Below are positions 7,154 to 62,370 of a stretch of DNA of 64,000 nucleotides, in pieces (positions within the stretch are counted from its first letter, which is position 1; each line of letters opens with the position of its first letter). The notes beneath the pieces were generated by a model. The model searched no databases, was not told the origin of the DNA, and worked only from the letters and a program-made list of their open reading frames with translations. Source of the stretch: Acidobacteriota bacterium. GTDB lineage: Bacteria > Acidobacteriota > Thermoanaerobaculia > Gp7-AA8. A program made the position numbers and the translations under genes. Location: contig QHVT01000017.1 of NCBI GenBank assembly GCA_003223645.1, forward strand, positions 62,001 to 126,000, in the 5' to 3' direction.

Positions 7154-7269
7154 TCAAAGACGTGGCCTACGGGCCCACGAAGCGCGGCTCCGCCCCACGG
7201 AAGGCGTGATCGTAGCCCTCACCTCGGCGCGTGGTGTTGCCATCGGAGCGGCAAATGATTCGATGGCAC

Positions 7270-7500
7270 GAGTCATCAAATCAAGAACATGAATCATCAA
7301 ATCGAGAGCATGAGTCATCAAATCAAGAGCACCGAGTCATCGAATCAAGAGCAGGATTCATCAAATCGAGAACATGAGTCATTACATCAAGAGCACGATT
7401 CATCAAATCGAGAACATGAATCATCAAATCGAGAGCACGATTCATCAAATCGAGAACACGAGTCATCAAATCAAGAACACGAATCATCAAATCTATGCAT
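7270..7500. repeat. Tandem array of 21-bp direct repeats, 11 units
   Basis: Eleven head-to-tail copies of a unit like GAATCATCAAATCGAGAACA(T/C). They differ at a few fixed positions (GAA/GAG/GAT start; CGAGA/CAAGA; CAT/CAC end). One extra base at 7333 breaks the phase. There are no spacers, so this is not CRISPR. The unit equals seven codons and two DNA helical turns. Both strands stay open through it, but the predicted peptides are monotonous heptads and have no start signals. Confidence 0.9.
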
Positions 7501-16019: not shown

Positions 16020-16523
16020 ATGCCCCGTTCTTTCGAAGGCGATCTCGACGCCCGGGATCTGAAGTTCGCCATCGTCGCGTCCCGCTTCAATGACGAAATC
16101 GTCTCCGCGCTGCTCGACGGCGCGCTGGAATGTCTCACGCGCCACGGCGCATCCGACGACGCGATCGTCTGCTGCCGCGTTCCCGGCGCATTCGAAATCC
16201 CGGCCGCCGTCGCGAAGCTGATCGGCTCCTGCGACGCGATCGTCGCCCTCGGCTGTCTCCTGCGCGGCGACACGCCGCATTTCGATTTCATTTCCGCGCA
16301 GGTGACGAACGATCTCTCGCGCATCGCCAGCGACGCGAAGTTCCCCGTCGCCTTCGGCGTCATCACCTGCAACACCTACGAGCAGGCCGTCGAGCGCTCG
16401 CGGCCGGGAACGAAAAACAAAGGGTGGGAAGCCGCGCTGGCGGCGATCGAGATGGCGAACCTCTGGAAGCGGATGGCAGAGGGCAGAAGGCAGATGGCAG
16501 AGGACCGAGGAAACGAAGAATGA
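16020..16523 (+). CDS. ribH: 6,7-dimethyl-8-ribityllumazine synthase
   Basis: A 167-residue enzyme of the penultimate riboflavin step. It condenses 5-amino-6-ribitylaminouracil with 3,4-dihydroxy-2-butanone 4-phosphate. Family blocks are clear: FAIVASRFNDEIVSALLDGA, RVPGAFEIPAAVAKL, ALGCLLRGDTPHFDFI (catalytic His in the TPHFD motif) and AFGVITCNTYEQAVERS. The last 15 residues or so (AEGRRQMAEDRGNEE) are encoded by the left arm of a GGCAGA-type repeat that has run into the gene. Normal family members end near ANLWK. Confidence 0.93.
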   Translation: MPRSFEGDLDARDLKFAIVASRFNDEIVSALLDGALECLTRHGASDDAIVCCRVPGAFEIPAAVAKLIGSCDAIVALGCLLRGDTPHFDFISAQVTNDLSRIASDAKFPVAFGVITCNTYEQAVERSRPGTKNKGWEAALAAIEMANLWKRMAEGRRQMAEDRGNEE

Positions 16524-16609
16524 TGTGCCGTCCCTCCTGCCATCTGCCATCCGCCATCCGCCATCTGCCATCCGCTATCCGCCATCCGCCATCTGCCATC
16601 TGCCATCTC
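16471..16609. repeat. 7-bp-unit hairpin (GATGGCA type) overlapping the ribH end
   Basis: The left arm (GGATGGCAGAGGGCAGAAGG ...) lies in the ribH 3' end. The right arm is a run of CCATCTG/CCATCCG units. A unique core of about 40 bp lies between. The same family occurs at 25757-25852 and 53314-53474. Confidence 0.8.
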
Positions 16610-17840: not shown

Positions 17841-17940
17841 ATGAAGGCAGAAGGCAGAAGGCAGAAGGCAGAACTTAGAAGTGCCGTTGGCACGGGCGAC
17901 TTCTGCCTTCTGCCTTCTGCCTTCTGCCTTCTGCCTTCAT
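17841..17940. repeat. 7-bp-unit hairpin (GAAGGCA type), copy 1
   Basis: ATG followed by repeated AAGGCAG units forms the left arm. Units of CTGCCTT ending in CAT form the right arm. The arms pair almost perfectly over about 35 bp. The centre is unique and holds its own GTGCC/GGCAC hairpin. Copies with the same arms but different centres are at 23201-23302 and 49862-49968. Confidence 0.9.
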
Positions 17941-23200: not shown

Positions 23201-23302
23201 ATGAAGGCAGAAGGCAGAAGGCAGAAGGCAGAACTGAGAAGTGGCAAATGGCCGCGTCTCACTTCTTACTTCTGCTTTCTGCCTTCTGCCTTCTGCCTTC
23301 AT
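23201..23302. repeat. 7-bp-unit hairpin (GAAGGCA type), copy 2
   Basis: The same ATGAAGGCAGAAGGCAG left arm and CTGCCTTCTGCCTTCAT right arm as at 17841 and 49862, with a different centre (GTGGCAAATGGCCGCGTCTC). It lies between cheA and the AAA ATPase gene. The frame upstream of the next gene stays open through the right arm, which may mislead gene callers. Confidence 0.9.
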
Positions 23303-24898: not shown

Positions 24899-25756
24899 AT
24901 GGATCTGACCTGCAAAAAATGCGGCTCGACCTTTCGCGCCGCGGTGAGCCTCCCGCTCACGTCACCCGTTCGCGTGGCCTGTCCCGGCTGCGGTTACCAG
25001 ATGGTTCTCAAGCCGCGCACGCTCAGCAGCATGCATCCCGTTCCCGTCCCGGAAAACGAAACGCCGCCGCCGCCCGCTCGTTTGCGCCGCCGCCGCATCG
25101 CCGCGATCGCCGATGAGCCGCGCCCGTTCCGCCATTTTCTCGGCGAGCATCTCCGCCGCCTCGGCTTCGAAGTCGAGTACTTCGAGACCGGCGATCCCGC
25201 GCTCGAATACGTCCGCTCCACGCGCGCCGATCTCATCATCGTCAACGTCTATCTCAAGGGAAAGCTCGGCGTCGAAGTCACCGAGGAGATCAAGGCCGAT
25301 GCCGAGCTCAAAGAGACGCGCGTGATTTTGATCGGCGCACTGTTCCGCGCGAACCGCTTCCGCGCGAATCCGACGAACCTCTACGGCGCCGACGAATACA
25401 TCGAAGAACAGATCCCGGAGAAAGAGTTCCGCCAGATCCTGCGCAAGCTCTTCCCGCAGATGGGCGAGACCGCCGAAGTGCCGCTCGAGCCGCGCGAGTA
25501 CGATGACGCGCGCCGTCTCGCCCGGCTCATCCTCTCCGACATCATCATCTATCACGCGCAGAAGGTGGAGCAGGGGATCCGCGACGACAACTTCTTCGAC
25601 GTGCTGCGCGAGGAGATCGAGGAAGGCCGCCAGTACTACGACTCGCGCGTGCCGCTGCGCGTGCGACGCGACACCGAAATCTACACGGAAACGCTCCAGC
25701 AATTCGTGCAGATGAAGCGCGAAGAGATGCAGAAATTGAGGACGGCCGCGCAATGA
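24899..25756 (+). CDS. Zinc-ribbon plus receiver-like domain protein
   Basis: A 285-residue protein. Cys5, Cys8, Cys28 and Cys31 form a zinc ribbon of the MJ0042/zinc-ribbon type. A receiver-like domain spans about 66-185 (RRIAAIADEPRPFRHFLGEH to ADEYIEEQIPEKEFRQIL). The phosphoacceptor position is Asn116 (LIIVNVYLKG) instead of Asp, and the acidic pair is reduced to DE, so phosphorylation is unlikely. The C-terminal about 90 residues are helical and charged. It is probably a phosphorylation-independent docking or scaffold protein of the chemosensory cluster. The start is the ATG right after the repeat. Confidence 0.75.
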   Translation: MDLTCKKCGSTFRAAVSLPLTSPVRVACPGCGYQMVLKPRTLSSMHPVPVPENETPPPPARLRRRRIAAIADEPRPFRHFLGEHLRRLGFEVEYFETGDPALEYVRSTRADLIIVNVYLKGKLGVEVTEEIKADAELKETRVILIGALFRANRFRANPTNLYGADEYIEEQIPEKEFRQILRKLFPQMGETAEVPLEPREYDDARRLARLILSDIIIYHAQKVEQGIRDDNFFDVLREEIEEGRQYYDSRVPLRVRRDTEIYTETLQQFVQMKREEMQKLRTAAQ

Positions 25757-25852
25757 GATGGCAGACGGCAGATGGCGGATGGCAGTGCATCAACACGCAG
25801 GTCGTGTTGCGCGCGAGTCTTCCGCCATCTGCCATCCGCCATCCGCCATCCA
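25757..25852. repeat. 7-bp-unit hairpin (GATGGCA type), copy 2
   Basis: GATGGCAGACGGCAGATGGC on the left, CCGCCATCTGCCATCCGCC on the right, with a unique core of about 35 bp. It fills the gap before the HEAT-repeat gene and matches the arms at 16471 and 53314. Confidence 0.85.
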
Positions 25853-48641: not shown

Positions 48642-49865
48642 ATGACATTCCTCAAGAACTTCATCAACGTCCTGTCCGTCGCATCGATCTCCTTCATTTT
48701 CCTTTCCGCCACCTTTGCCTTCATCGTCTACTTCTGTCTTCTCGACGGAAAGGTGAAGTCGAAGGCCGGCGTCGCCTTCATCATCGTCGGCCTCATCCTC
48801 GCCACGGCGGGACTCTGGTTCCTGCCGATGTTCTATCTCTCGATCGCCTACTTCCTCTCCCTCTGGGGACTCGCGACGCTCGGTCCGCGCCTGTGGGACA
48901 GCAAGACCGGGCTCTGGCTGCTGATCGCCGGCGCCGGCGGATTCGGCCTCTCGCTCCTCGATTCGAACTTCAAGCTGATCGCGGCGAAGCCGGACAACGT
49001 GCCGATCGGCGCGATGATCTTCCTTCTCGGCATCTTCACCTGGATCGCGCTGCGCAAGGCCTACCTCAACGACCGGCAGATTGCCGCCGGCGGCATGACC
49101 TTCGAGAAGACGGAGACGAACGAAAAACTGTTCGTGTGGCCCGACCTCGTTTACACCGAGATGCTCTGCATGATCGCGCTGACGATCGTCATGATCATCT
49201 GGTCGGTCGCCCTGCGCGCTCCGCTCGAGGAAGCGGCGAACCCGACGTCCTCTCCGAATCCCGCGAAAGCGCCGTGGTACTTCCTCGGCCTGCAGGAGAT
49301 GCTCGTCTACTTCGATCCCTGGCTCGCCGGTGTCGTGCTGCCGACGCTCATCATCGTCGGCCTGATGGCGATTCCGTACATCGACACGAATCCGAAAGGA
49401 AACGGCTACTACTCCTTCCGCGAGCGGAAGTGGGAGATCGGCGTCTTCCTCTACGGCTTCCTCGTGCTCTGGTCGTTCCTCATCATCACCGGCACGTTCC
49501 TGCGCGGCCCGAACTGGAACTTCTTCGGACCCTTCGAATTTTGGGACCCGAACAAACTCGAGCCATTGGTCAACGTCGACCTATCGGAGTTGATCTGGGT
49601 CAAGGCGCTGTCGATGCCGCTGCCGAAGCTCTGGATCATCCGCGAAGCGTTCGGCCTCGGCCTGATCCTGCTCTACCTCGGCCTCGCACCCGCCGCCGCG
49701 AAAGGTCCGTTCCGCCGCTTCTATTTGAAGATGGGCGCGCCGCGCTACTACGTCGGTGCGTACCTGTTCCTGGTCATGCTCGCGCTGCCCATCAAGATGG
49801 TTTTGCGCTGGATCTTCAATCTCAAGTACATCGTTCATATCCAGGAGATCTTTTTCAACATATGA
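48642..49865 (+). CDS. Cytochrome b C-terminal subunit (subunit IV-like), enlarged
   Basis: A 407-residue membrane protein with about nine helices. The segment PAKAPWYFLGLQEMLVYFDP is the PEWY-region counterpart of cytochrome b C-terminal/subunit IV proteins. Four or so extra N-terminal helices (about 1-150) precede it, which a standard subunit IV (about 160 residues) lacks. It forms part of the quinol-oxidising site with the preceding b6-like protein. The TGA stop lies inside the first ATGAAGG of the following repeat. Confidence 0.82.
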   Translation: MTFLKNFINVLSVASISFIFLSATFAFIVYFCLLDGKVKSKAGVAFIIVGLILATAGLWFLPMFYLSIAYFLSLWGLATLGPRLWDSKTGLWLLIAGAGGFGLSLLDSNFKLIAAKPDNVPIGAMIFLLGIFTWIALRKAYLNDRQIAAGGMTFEKTETNEKLFVWPDLVYTEMLCMIALTIVMIIWSVALRAPLEEAANPTSSPNPAKAPWYFLGLQEMLVYFDPWLAGVVLPTLIIVGLMAIPYIDTNPKGNGYYSFRERKWEIGVFLYGFLVLWSFLIITGTFLRGPNWNFFGPFEFWDPNKLEPLVNVDLSELIWVKALSMPLPKLWIIREAFGLGLILLYLGLAPAAAKGPFRRFYLKMGAPRYYVGAYLFLVMLALPIKMVLRWIFNLKYIVHIQEIFFNI

Positions 49866-49968
49866 AGGCAGAAGGCAGAAGGCAGAAGGCAGAAGTGAGA
49901 AGTGATTCGCTGCACGCGTTTGGTGCATTTCTCACTTCTGCCTTCTGCCTTCTGCCTTCTGCCTTCAT
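49862..49968. repeat. 7-bp-unit hairpin (GAAGGCA type), copy 3
   Basis: The same arms as at 17841 and 23201. The centre is different (GATTCGCTGCACGCGTTTGG), flanked by AGTGAGAAGTG and its complement CTCACTTCT. It contains the stop codon of the preceding gene and precedes the octahaem cytochrome gene in the operon. Confidence 0.9.
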
Positions 49969-52900: not shown

Positions 52901-53313
52901 AACTGCGCCTGCATCACGAATGGATCGCCGACTGGATTCGCCGTCCCGGCGAGATGATCCCCGACACGCGCATGCCCGCGAACTTCCCGCGCGACGCGCA
53001 GACCGGCGGCTTCAAGTCGCCGCTCGCCGGCGCGATCGACACGCCCGCATTCGCCGCGCACAAAGCAGCGCTGCTGCCGTACTTCGAGAGCGAAGAAGCG
53101 CTGCGCAAGACGATGAGCGACGCCGTCGCACTCACCAACTATCTGCGCGACTACATCTGGTCCATCGGAATCAATCAGATGCGCAGCGCCGGCGCCGGCC
53201 CCGAATCCCCCGCGCCGCAACAACAACCCACATCGCCGCCGGTGCCCGTACAGACCGGCGATCGCGCGCCGGCTCCTCCGGTCAGGAGCGCGCGCGCAGG
53301 ATCACGCCGATGA
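49987..53313 (+). CDS. Membrane-anchored octahaem c-type cytochrome
   Basis: A 1108-residue protein. One N-terminal helix (about 17-38, LIFALTSLGLLAGTGLMVGY) is followed by a coiled coil (about 45-215). Then come eight CxxCH haem sites: CQTCH, CTVCH, CLKCH, CHACH, CMACH, CYSCH, CRGCH and CAQCH. Several modules have the mono-haem cytochrome c pattern with a later Met (MPSFF, MPSLRLS, MPNFHLS, MPTFGFS, MPANFP). It lies between cytochrome b and the oxidase genes, so it probably replaces cytochrome c1 and carries electrons to the oxidase. A Pro-rich tail ends the protein. I know of no standard name for it. Confidence 0.88.
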   Translation: MKPQEPIPHNYSMRKLNLIFALTSLGLLAGTGLMVGYDYIRGWKWFQLEFNRIQEERIEQELKAKDDPATRAKLAEFDREMREGQVVIAKKRDAYLEAQKVLDEWEGKHYAADQDYRFTKAKLDAQRYVTELSVVQHRSDGREQQKKFADLTARVQALNLRLQQATRDRDAARARVDAYLAEIKKIEDRKKEITASVELLNKQLEAVSPKSKRMVLNLPMLDFINPTLKIDQVVLGDLFIDMNYMSVPRVDRCQTCHRAIDRPGFESKKEAERLAAELKRELDANRIQPTKRAETEARVAELQRIVDSPREIPNPFRTHPKLDMFVGSASPHPLLEYGCTVCHRGQDRATEFGRAGHTAMSPKMESRWKRVKMPFFPGPWDYKQRNWGYEENPFLETPMYPRQYTEAGCLKCHGGQIEVKNGDQINKATHMVELYGCHACHKINNWRFTGLQKPGPSLEGIAEKTYPAWAVRWISNPNHFRPTTRMPSFFYQRNMVGPAVPADERARNIKYQDAEIHSIVTYLFDRSTHRTWTPGPQGDAGRGKQLVDSIGCMACHIQQDTVKDEKTGAVRVARRDDFPLERNFGFNLVGVGTKTHAAWIYNWIKNPKAYDKLAPMPSLRLSDGEAADITAYLLTLQKPKFLQEPMRAPDPNVIRELAKGYLIGTMTDTDADAKLRVMPVKEQMLYLGQRSIEKYGCYSCHDIKGFDGLKPIGTELTTEGSKAAHLFDFGFVHEYEHEDGKHEHIMHNVPSWIYNKVRSPRIYDDERTKPYNDKLKMPNFHLSEEEARLATMVVVGLTKERVAANRLAASDSRMRAVEEERKIISQRNCRGCHIVNRSGRAIAAMISDSNFLPPDLTPQGARAQSPWLFNFIKDPTVMKIRPWLSVRMPTFGFSDHEAATLVAGFAAEGNESQFDTHRYDIPPQGNVAVGREVFAMLRCAQCHSTTSVDPANPPVPNTADATSLAPNLTLAKLRLHHEWIADWIRRPGEMIPDTRMPANFPRDAQTGGFKSPLAGAIDTPAFAAHKAALLPYFESEEALRKTMSDAVALTNYLRDYIWSIGINQMRSAGAGPESPAPQQQPTSPPVPVQTGDRAPAPPVRSARAGSRR

Positions 53314-53474
53314 GATGGCAAGGCGGATGGCAGATGGTGGATGGCGGATGGCAGATGGCAGATGGCAGGGGGACCGACGCTACGGTGCCGTTGGTCGAGA
53401 CCATCCGCCATCTGCCATCCGCCATCTGCCATCTGCCATCTGAGGCGCCATCCGCCATCCGCCATCTGCCATCC
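53314..53474. repeat. 7-bp-unit hairpin (GATGGCA type), copy 3
   Basis: Starts one base after the cytochrome stop codon. The left arm has GATGGCAAGGCGGATGGCAG units and the right arm CCGCCATCTGCCATC units, interrupted by TGAGGCG. A unique core of about 35 bp lies between. Confidence 0.88.
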
Positions 53475-59992: not shown

Positions 59993-60909
59993 CGACGATG
60001 CCGAATGTGGCGACCGCTGCCCCCAGCGGTCGCGGTGCCGCTGAGGGCAGCGGCACCCACAAGCTTGCGGACTACTTCGAGCTCTCGAAGTCACGCATCG
60101 TTCTGATGGTGCTCATCACCACCGCCGCCGGCTTTCTCTTCGCGGCGAAGCACGTCGATCCCGTCCTGCTCCTGCACGCGCTCATCGGCACCGCGCTCGT
60201 CGCCGCCGGCACGAACGCGCTCAATCAATACGTCGAGCGCGATCTCGACGCGAAGATGCATCGCACGCGCTCCCGTCCGCTCCCCGCCGGCCGCATGGCG
60301 CCGCGTACCGCGCTCCTCTTCTCCTCCGCGATCGCCATCCTCGGCACGCTCTACCTCGGCGTCTTCGTCAACTGGCTGACCGCCTTCCTCGGCGCGTTCA
60401 CGCTCACCAGCTACATCTTCGTCTACACGCCGCTCAAGCGCGTCTCCACCATCTGCACGCTCATCGGCGCCATCCCCGGCGCGATCCCGCCGCTCATGGG
60501 CTGGACCGCCGCGACCAACGCGCTGTCGCTCGGCGGCTGGATCGCCTTCGGCATCCTCTTCCTCTGGCAGCTCCCGCACTTCATGGCCATCAGCTGGATG
60601 TACCGCGACGACTACGCGCGCGGCGGCTTCGCCATGCTCTCCGTGCGCAACGAAGACGGATCGGCCGTCGCGCGCCAGGCGATTCTCTACACGCTCGCGC
60701 TCCTCGCCGTCAGCGTGCTCCCGTGGACGTTCGGCATGACCGGACTCGTCTACCTCATCGGCGCCGTCGCCGCCGGAGCCGCACTCCTCGCCGCCGCGAT
60801 CCGCTTCTTCCACGACCGCGACGTCAAACACGCACGCAGCGTGTTCATGATCTCGAACCTCTACTTGCTTACCGTGATGTTGCTCCTCGTCATCAATGCG
60901 CGCGCGTAA
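59989..60909 (+). CDS. ctaB: Protohaem IX farnesyltransferase (haem O synthase)
   Basis: A 306-residue UbiA-family prenyltransferase that adds a farnesyl group to haem B. The motif NALNQYVERDLDAKMHRTRS contains the Asp-rich site, YTPLKRVSTICTLIGAIPGA follows, and there are about nine helices. Residues 8-24 (ATAAPSGRGAAEGSGTH) are encoded by two small palindromes (60010-60058), another case of repeat DNA inside a coding sequence. It is a normal partner of ctaA. Confidence 0.95.
   Translation: MTTMPNVATAAPSGRGAAEGSGTHKLADYFELSKSRIVLMVLITTAAGFLFAAKHVDPVLLLHALIGTALVAAGTNALNQYVERDLDAKMHRTRSRPLPAGRMAPRTALLFSSAIAILGTLYLGVFVNWLTAFLGAFTLTSYIFVYTPLKRVSTICTLIGAIPGAIPPLMGWTAATNALSLGGWIAFGILFLWQLPHFMAISWMYRDDYARGGFAMLSVRNEDGSAVARQAILYTLALLAVSVLPWTFGMTGLVYLIGAVAAGAALLAAAIRFFHDRDVKHARSVFMISNLYLLTVMLLLVINARA
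60010..60058. repeat. Two adjacent palindromes inside the ctaB start
   Basis: GCGACCGCTG/CAGCGGTCGC (60010-60033) and GGTGCCGCTG/CAGCGGCACC (60034-60058). They encode part of the N-terminal tail of CtaB, before the first conserved residue. Confidence 0.75.
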
Positions 60910-60913
60910 CGCC

Positions 60914-61015
60914 TGTCATCCCGAGCGTAGCGAGGGACCCGGGCGGGAGGGGCGCGATACTCATGCCTGTGCCGCCACCCGAGCCCCAGCTCCCTCGCTC
61001 GCGCTCGGGATGACA
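60914..61015. repeat. TGTCATCCCGAGC palindrome supplying the sco start codon
   Basis: TGTCATCCCGAGCGTAGCGA at the left and CTCGCTCGCGCTCGGGATGA at the right are complementary. The final ATGACA contains the ATG (61010) of the Sco gene. It is related to 15823-15917 and 44251-44354. Confidence 0.88.
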
Positions 61016-61552
61016 TTGCTTCTGTTCGCATTCGCCTGCCATCAGCACTCCGATCTCCCGAAGCTCTTTCCCGTCCCCGACGCGCATCTCGTGAGCGAGC
61101 GCGGCACGCCGGTCTCGCTCGCATCGATGAAAGGCAGCGTGACGGTCTACGACTTCATCTACACGACCTGCAGCGGCACGTGCCCGATCATGACCAACAA
61201 CATGCGCGCGCTCACGAAGCAGATCGGCAAGAACGCGCCGGTGCGCTTCGTCTCCATCAGCGTCGACCCGACGCACGACACGCCCGAAGTGCTCTCCGTG
61301 TACGCGAAGCGCGTCCGCAACGACGACCGCTGGTCGTTCCTCACCGGAACGCGCAACGACATCGTCAAGCTGTCCATTCAGGGCTTCAAGCTCGCCGCGG
61401 GCGATCCCGGTCCCGGCGGCGATCCGCTCCTGCACTCCTCCAAATTCGCCGTCGCCGATAAAGAAGGAACGATCCGCGCGTACTATGACGGCGCGGACGG
61501 CGCGACGACGGACGACATCGCGAAAGCGGTCAACGCGCTCGCGCGCGAATGA
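61010..61552 (+). CDS. sco: Sco-family copper chaperone lipoprotein
   Basis: A 180-residue protein starting MTLLLFAFACHQ, with a short lipoprotein signal and Cys10 as the lipid site. The thioredoxin-fold Sco domain has Cys54-x3-Cys58 (TTCSGTCPIM) and the later copper His in LLHSSKFAVADK. FVSISVDPTHDTPEVL is characteristic. Sco delivers copper to the CuA site of ctaC. The start codon is part of a palindromic repeat; the earlier open frame would read the repeat and is not credible. It closes the oxidase operon. Confidence 0.9.
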   Translation: MTLLLFAFACHQHSDLPKLFPVPDAHLVSERGTPVSLASMKGSVTVYDFIYTTCSGTCPIMTNNMRALTKQIGKNAPVRFVSISVDPTHDTPEVLSVYAKRVRNDDRWSFLTGTRNDIVKLSIQGFKLAAGDPGPGGDPLLHSSKFAVADKEGTIRAYYDGADGATTDDIAKAVNALARE

Positions 61553-61579
61553 TCGTGTGTCTACGCGATTCAACCGAGA

Positions 61580-62028
61580 ACAGCCGCGGATGAGATATCC
61601 CTGCCACGCATGGAATCACACCAATAGCCGTGGCTGAGACATCCTTGCATGCAGATGATCGGAGTAACAGCCCTGGCTATTGATATCAATGGTCACGGAG
61701 CAGGCAGCCTACTCGAGATCAGGAAGAACGTTGATGATTTGATCAAGGAATGACAGCCAAGGCTATTACTACTTTGACTGAATGAGCTACCCGTACCAGC
61801 CCGGGCTAATGAAGACAATACAACACCAGCAGAGTAGCAATTGCCGAGGCTATTGCATCTGACTCATACATGCCAGGGCGTACCAGCCATGGACAAGAGC
61901 CCTAATAGCCGTGGCTATTGCATATCCTCGCCGCGGTCAGTCGCTGATTGTTACTCCCAGCAACAGGGTAACAGCCACGGATGGCGTCACAACCTTGATC
62001 TGCATTGATCTCAATAGCCACGGCTGGT
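61580..62028. promoter_or_regulatory. Phased array of AGCC-NN-GGCT palindromic sites
   Basis: Thirteen sites matching or near (A/C)AGCC-NN-GGCTATT fill the 490-bp gap before the XRE gene. Their centres are near 61586, 61606, 61630, 61673, 61695, 61759, 61802, 61846, 61889, 61911, 61933, 61977 and 62020. All intervals are close to multiples of about 21.7 bp, so the sites face one side of the helix. The best site (61904-61919) has 7-bp arms AATAGCC/GGCTATT. The last site (62013-62028) touches the TACGCT box of the XRE gene. Additional loose matches (near 61875) are out of phase. It is likely a cooperative operator or iteron-like array. Confidence 0.65.
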
Positions 62029-62033
62029 ACGCT
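62028..62033 (+). promoter_or_regulatory. Leaderless -10 element (TACGCT) for the XRE gene
   Basis: TACGCT ends 7 nt before the ATG at 62041, the same spacing as at other genes in the window. It lies right next to the last site of the palindrome array, so binding there should block the promoter. Confidence 0.5.
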
Positions 62034-62040
62034 TCATCAA

Positions 62041-62370
62041 ATGCCGAAAGCAGCGCGACGAAACCCAGATGCGACCCGCTTCGGAATGGTGATCCGCCGG
62101 CTTCGACAGGAGCGCGGCTGGACCATTGGGACCTTGGCTCACCGTGCCTTCATGAATCAGACCCACCTCGGCGTGCTGGAAGCCGGCGGCAACATTCCAA
62201 GCCTGATCACCATCCTCCGACTCGGCGACGCATTGGGAATCAACGGCGCCGATATCGTCCGCGAAGTCGAGGAGATGCGGCGAGAAGCGGAACGCGTCCG
62301 GCTCGCAGCGAAGAAGGCCGCCATGACACCGCCGCCGCCGGTGAACGACGACGATGTCGGCGGTTCATGA
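62041..62370 (+). CDS. XRE-family transcriptional regulator
   Basis: A 109-residue protein. Residues about 14-68 are a helix-turn-helix of the XRE/Cro type (IRRLRQERGWTIGTLAHRA; NQTHLGVLEAGGNIPSLITI; LGDALGINGADIV). A charged helix (VEEMRREAERVRLAAKK) and a Pro-rich tail follow. It should bind DNA as a dimer. ATG 62041 is chosen; an upstream in-frame GTG/ATG would place an operator-like site inside the gene. The array of palindromic sites directly upstream is the obvious target, implying autoregulation. Confidence 0.85.
   Translation: MPKAARRNPDATRFGMVIRRLRQERGWTIGTLAHRAFMNQTHLGVLEAGGNIPSLITILRLGDALGINGADIVREVEEMRREAERVRLAAKKAAMTPPPPVNDDDVGGS

Follow-up and report, generated by a model that had tools for sequence, protein, structure and literature searches.

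What is the series of palindromes that lies between a sco gene and a small XRE regulator gene in this Acidobacteriota genome, and what might it do for the gene that follows? The window (the whole stretch of DNA that was analysed, 64,000 nucleotides) contains an SCO1/SenC gene recognised by Pfam (sco; 60896–61552, forward strand), an upstream neighbour that we place outside the module, and in the gap between its stop codon (61552) and the XRE start codon (ATG at 62041) there are ten clear palindromes of the form AAYAGCC-NN-GGCTRTT, together forming an array at 61579–62028 to which no strand is assigned. From left to right, with position weight matrix (PWM) scores in parentheses, these are AACAGCCGCGGATGAG at 61579–61594 (15.9), AATAGCCGTGGCTGAG at 61623–61638 (19.1), AACAGCCCTGGCTATT at 61666–61681 (22.3), GACAGCCAAGGCTATT at 61752–61767 (19.2), ACCAGCCCGGGCTAAT at 61795–61810 (16.8), AATTGCCGAGGCTATT at 61839–61854 (18.5), ACCAGCCATGGACAAG at 61882–61897 (11.9; the weakest site accepted), AATAGCCGTGGCTATT at 61904–61919 (24.1; perfect), AACAGCCACGGATGGC at 61970–61985 (15.7) and AATAGCCACGGCTGGT at 62013–62028 (21.3), the last of which (site 10) is centred 20.5 bp before the ATG and is the candidate promoter-proximal operator.

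The array is real, non-random and helically phased. The site centres fit a period of 21.68 bp (Rayleigh fit, R = 0.990), which sets the sites two helical turns, or a multiple of two, from one another, and none of 2,000 random placements of the same number of sites matched this R (P ≤ 5e-4); there are 22 lattice slots, ten of them occupied. In the 64-kb window AATAGCCNNGGCTATT has eight matches with three or fewer mismatches, seven of which are in 61623–62028, and 0.8 are expected by chance. A PWM scan of the window scores the ten lattice sites at 11.9–24.1 bits and nothing outside the array above 10.4, an unsupervised palindrome finder recovered the identical ten sites, and none of 150 dinucleotide shuffles yielded any motif with even three sites. 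The first-pass annotation had described 13 sites on a grid of about 21.7 bp; the grid is borne out and ten sites are secure, but the other three (61599–61614, 61688–61703 and 61926–61941, with PWM scores of −0.1, −1.5 and 1.5) are marginal, their scores being close to the value that marks the 95th percentile for off-lattice positions (−0.9).

Pairwise identity among the sites is 0.67, whereas that among the spacers is 0.28–0.31 (28–29% for the 13 bp on each side of the sites), close to the 0.26 expected from composition. Since the sites are alike and the spacers unrelated, tandem duplication does not account for the phase, and a simple tandem repeat is rejected; Tandem Repeats Finder reports none here. 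If tandem duplication did start the array, the spacers have become near random since then, while the phase was left undisturbed by insertions and deletions, which suggests that selection acts on the sites as well as on their phase.

The XRE gene (62041–62370, forward strand; start codon chosen from an alignment of paralogues) codes for a 109-residue protein that matches the Pfam helix-turn-helix (HTH) families HTH_31 (PF13560, E = 2.4e-8) and HTH_3 (PF01381, E = 1.4e-6), both above cut-offs. The AlphaFold model (mean pLDDT 90) has five helices, including a recognition helix at residues 40–47 and a long C-terminal helix at 69–95, and Pfam and the model together give a five-helix XRE-type HTH, with no domain besides this and the C-terminal helix found by either. 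Restriction-modification (R-M) controller (C) proteins are at the top of both sequence and fold searches, with C.AhdI and C.BclI the nearest solved structures; C.AhdI is the best sequence match (E = 9.4e-13) and has a TM-score of 0.94 (target-normalised). Matches to the PADLOC control-protein and HipB-like models are weak, and those to NCBIfam models are far under the naming cut-offs. Pairs of XRE genes have Ka/Ks ratios of 0.06–0.24, and the XRE is under purifying selection.

A search of 18 genomes of the same family with the A1 profile identified 16 XREs at 117 bits or more, with all others at 88 or less. A profile search of an even sample of 396 genomes from the phylum found no further members of the group, and a scan of GTDB r220 found distant XRE fragments only. 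Thirteen of the 14 members of one XRE clade (maximum-likelihood tree, support 92/84) have an array upstream, three in the window's own genome (the window, G000:C44:51 kb and G000:C26:40 kb) and ten in genus g5, and the sole member without one (L037) represents a single loss. Two XRE loci outside the clade (L041 and L050) have just one or two sites near the promoter. We also note an XRE paralogue in the window's own genome (L066 3317–3514, in G000:C24) whose HTH seems to be missing its middle part, and which has no upstream array.

The arrays at XRE loci contain about 4–15 sites each and span 250–600 bp. Those that are well resolved have lattices of 20.9–21.7 bp; three others (at L051, L053 and L057), either short or mixed, are individually weak. 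The array recurs upstream of orthologues and paralogues in the family genomes, with the lattice retained and the motif varying, and this recurrence favours the suggestion of helically phased, probably cooperative sites. All share the core CC-NN-GG, and it is the flanks that differ: TGNCAACC in L048, CATCC in L051, CTCTTRCC in L052–L054, ATGTCC in L036 and L055, and AGCCATGGACAC in L038–L040. Distances between motif flanks and between proteins are correlated (Mantel r = 0.58, P = 3.5e-4); for example, proteins with MTPTY in the helix go with CTCTTRCC and those with MNPTYLGF go with AGCCATGGACAC, a pattern that co-inheritance of gene and array could predict as well as cognate recognition.

The motif is private to its array. 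In the window's own genome matches with at most one mismatch are restricted to the array, and two-mismatch matches elsewhere are not above a reversed control (35 versus 92 per strand); the g5 motif AGCCATGGACACTTGA similarly occurs in arrays only, barring a few scattered two-mismatch matches. A local regulon acting through similar sites was considered and rejected, there being no near-consensus sites elsewhere in this genome. The arrays resemble REP/BIME elements (PMC3733652) in being intergenic, palindromic and present or absent among relatives, but REPs are dispersed copies of one sequence, whereas here each array has its own motif on a strict helical lattice, the window motif at one mismatch or fewer is found only in its array rather than genome-wide, and a subset of arrays is tied to a regulator gene.

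In most relatives whose sco locus could be read, a conserved small membrane-protein gene is next after sco (judged by eye from translated ORFs and sequence), and the window has the array and XRE in its place. Two g5 modules are missing from the corresponding gaps of sister species. At L039 the gap containing the module is 829 bp and those in G017 and G014 are 23 bp and ~165 bp, and at L054 it is ~0.8 kb, whereas G017 has 98 bp there and G005 has 162 bp. The loci L040 and L038 form an orthologous pair in which each member has an array. Apart from this pair, no gene recurs beside the modules at 16 XRE loci, where translated ORFs were inspected by eye and a few were scanned with Pfam, and at each locus the module has different neighbours, all of them ordinary chromosomal genes. 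No target-site duplication is seen at the presence/absence gaps, and the direction of change, gain or loss of the module, is read from its sparse distribution. In G014 there is a solo array with no XRE (contig C6, L094 2820–3175) that has the motif of L038, an XRE locus of the same genome. It separates rimM from trmD, and the gap between these genes measures 436 bp here as opposed to 77 bp or less in other genomes with both ends placed.

A putative promoter, TTGATC-17-TACGCT (62005–62033, forward strand), can be read from the sequence; it is weak, site 10 fills its spacer, and the start would be near-leaderless. The idea that the final site abuts the −10 box is accordingly plausible, with the reservation that a consensus scan of the region upstream of the XRE gene in the window found no sigma-70 promoter. 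The slot of site 10 (centre at −18 to −22) is also occupied in L048, L036, L055, L051 and L054, and the corresponding site of L048 extends into a TATAAT. At most loci the final site overlies the promoter region, but in three related loci (L038–L040, at ~50 bp) and in L057 the nearest strong site lies ~50–62 bp ahead of the start codon and thereby upstream of a possible promoter, and activation rather than repression is possible at these loci.

The array is probably an extended cooperative operator for the XRE gene immediately downstream, with gene and array forming an autorepressing, stand-alone cassette. XRE dimers with the fold of R-M controllers would occupy the palindromes, which share a single face of the helix, with neighbouring dimers touching directly at 21-bp steps, and a DNA bend or an intervening weakly held dimer might bridge the 43- and 64-bp steps. 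The array would fill cooperatively, and occupation of the promoter-proximal site would block the promoter and turn XRE transcription off; the outcome could be a sharply switching or a well-buffered autorepressor, to which some functional benefit presumably attaches. The cassette of array and XRE (~0.7–0.8 kb) would be gained and lost in intergenic gaps, and private site specificity should prevent cross-talk between paralogous modules of one genome. The geometry is compatible with cooperative binding of adjacent dimers upstream of their own gene, and the suggestion in the first-pass annotation that the adjacent XRE is the natural ligand gains from the recurrence of the arrays, the motif–protein co-variation and the confinement to the array of matches with one mismatch or fewer.

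Among the closest known systems are the C proteins, which bind cooperatively to adjacent or helically spaced dimer sites (PMC3758141, PMC4321490). C.Esp1396I dimers are strongly cooperative on adjacent operators (PMC3758141), and C.Csp231I binds two sites separated by 18 bp, a spacer for which length matters and sequence does not (PMC4321490). C proteins (C.AhdI, C.BclI, C.Esp1396I and C.Csp231I) are, like the window XRE, small XRE-fold proteins, acting as homodimers on operators of their own gene, and the dimer–dimer cooperativity on neighbouring palindromes that has been measured for them is predicted here from the sites. Their operators, however, are pairs, whereas here there are ~4–15 sites over 250–600 bp. 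No restriction or methylase genes were recognised beside the XREs (16 loci, ORFs by eye), and because of this we do not file the window system under R-M controllers; the best reading is of a regulator that acts in the manner of a controller protein but has a far longer operator. A second relevant group is the lambda/434-type repressors, in which XRE HTH dimers bind several phased palindromes and control their own promoter. The HTH and the several phased palindromes at a predicted own promoter are common to both, but those repressors have few operators, a phage context and extra domains, none of which apply here. An RNA element was also considered and discarded, as there is no Rfam match and a two-base centre with degenerate arms is unsuited to an RNA hairpin.

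An alternative is that a general process generating or maintaining tandem repeats of helical length made the lattice, and that the XRE adopted one such array. A survey of four genomes, each in part, with the same palindrome finder, its period left free between 15 and 34 bp, identified 14 phased arrays in 864 kb of the window's own genome (13 at 20.4–21.6 bp and one weak at 22.3) and 12 in 400 kb of G005 (all at 20.5–21.5 bp), most with no XRE nearby, as this alternative would have it. Tandem Repeats Finder, which ignores palindromes, agrees on the period, with most multi-copy repeats with units of 20–80 bp in G000 and G005 at 21–22, 41–44 or 63 bp, and some XRE arrays (L038–L040 and L052) are themselves partly homogeneous tandem repeats. 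With so many XRE-free phased arrays, the lattice does not require a neighbouring XRE. The window array, however, is not a tandem repeat, its spacers being near the composition expectation and its sites kept, and array presence follows the XRE clade. Moreover, there is a single array in 400 kb of G001, which is of the same genus and has no array XREs, and none at this period in 400 kb of G050, of the same class. As these are four genomes at partial length, a link between the abundance of phased arrays and the XRE clade is a lead and not a result. We regard a repeat process as an unlikely source of the window array. Lattice-period repeat units are modestly palindromic overall (Fisher P 0.002), and individually in 6 of 29 cases; the notion that XRE-free arrays are as palindromic as those at XREs was thus weak when tested, and the palindrome finder itself selects for palindromes. 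Two XRE-free arrays of the window's own genome (L193 and L196, at G000:C44:186.1 kb and 256.9 kb) resemble the window array in that the sites are conserved and the spacers between them have diverged.

It is also improbable, to a similar degree, that the XRE regulates remote targets, or is a repressor of antitoxin-like type, and that the array is a sink that titrates free protein. Small stand-alone XREs do score against antitoxin and repressor families, and the solo array in G014 with the same motif as an XRE array would suit such a role, but the own genome lacks near-consensus sites elsewhere to serve as targets and there is no recurrent partner gene.

A centromere-like or nucleoid-organising scaffold, in which the XRE coats the array as SopB coats F sopC and autorepression is secondary, seems a little less likely still. 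In F sopC a 43-bp unit that contains a 16-bp inverted repeat is present twelve times (PMC6238139, PMC9178275), and the 43-bp steps here have the same geometry, with 16-bp palindromes at ~43-bp spacing in about a dozen copies; the solo array between rimM and trmD is also in keeping with such a role. The sopC repeats, however, are tandem and the window spacers are unrelated in sequence, and SopB, which is of the ParB type, has SopA as its partner, whereas here there is an XRE with no domains beyond the HTH and C-terminal helix and no ParA-type partner recognised beside the loci inspected. Motifs also differ from module to module. Finally, iterons of a plasmid or phage, as raised in the first-pass annotation, and likewise the control region of a prophage, can be dismissed as highly improbable: iterons can have a phase of about two helical turns and are direct repeats beside a replication initiator, but the contexts here are ordinary chromosomal ones, inspection of the loci revealed no initiator and no neighbouring rep, par, integrase or phage gene that could be recognised, viral scans found no relative and a phage collection gave one weak match.

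Several other repeats are present in these genomes. XRE-free arrays in the window's own genome are at L165 7248–7849, L167 681–1117, L169 17080–17436, L173 3950–4170, L176 1060–1377, L179 18850–19343, L182 571–1069, L193 6079–6600, L196 16859–17030 and L200 19292–20000, with a common motif in L167 and L176. A second 21-bp phased array in the window (7266–7493; 10.8 copies of CACGAGTCATCAAATCAAGAA, a GATT-N5-AATC-type inverted repeat) lies between a GatA-like gene and one for a probable secreted protein, with no XRE nearby. A tandem repeat of 43-bp units whose centres are CCATGG and CACGTG (L095 3012–3360, in G000:C3) also has no XRE found nearby. In G292, from another family of the phylum, a dispersed element of ~700 bp, made up of ACCATGGT sites on a 21-bp lattice, is present in several copies, full or partial, with no XRE seen (L096 1903–2585, L097 2705–3450 and L098 1198–1948). 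The window also contains facing pairs of 7-bp tandem repeats (16475–16608, 17843–17938, 23203–23300, 25756–25851, 49864–49966 and 53313–53474), such as four copies of GAAGGCA followed by five of CTTCTGC, which could form long hairpins.

By extrapolation of the survey, each of the family genomes may have on the order of 100 phased arrays, and we raise, tentatively and with some doubt, the possibility that these arrays, on a 21–21.6-bp lattice and mostly with locus-private motifs, are an undescribed class of nucleoprotein scaffold, of which the XRE cassettes would be the subset that encode their own ligand. A search of open-licence papers found no description of such arrays. The XRE-free arrays in turn raise the question of what holds intergenic repeats on a helical lattice. 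That a gene can regulate itself through two or three operators is textbook knowledge. An architecture in which a dozen phased operators precede a single small regulator, with a motif that changes between paralogues, is not described in the open-licence literature searched. A natural series of protein and motif pairs in one fold may permit the XRE recognition code to be read, and the cassettes would offer both a clean system in which to test how cooperativity depends on helical phase and a supply of repressor–operator pairs that are insulated from one another.
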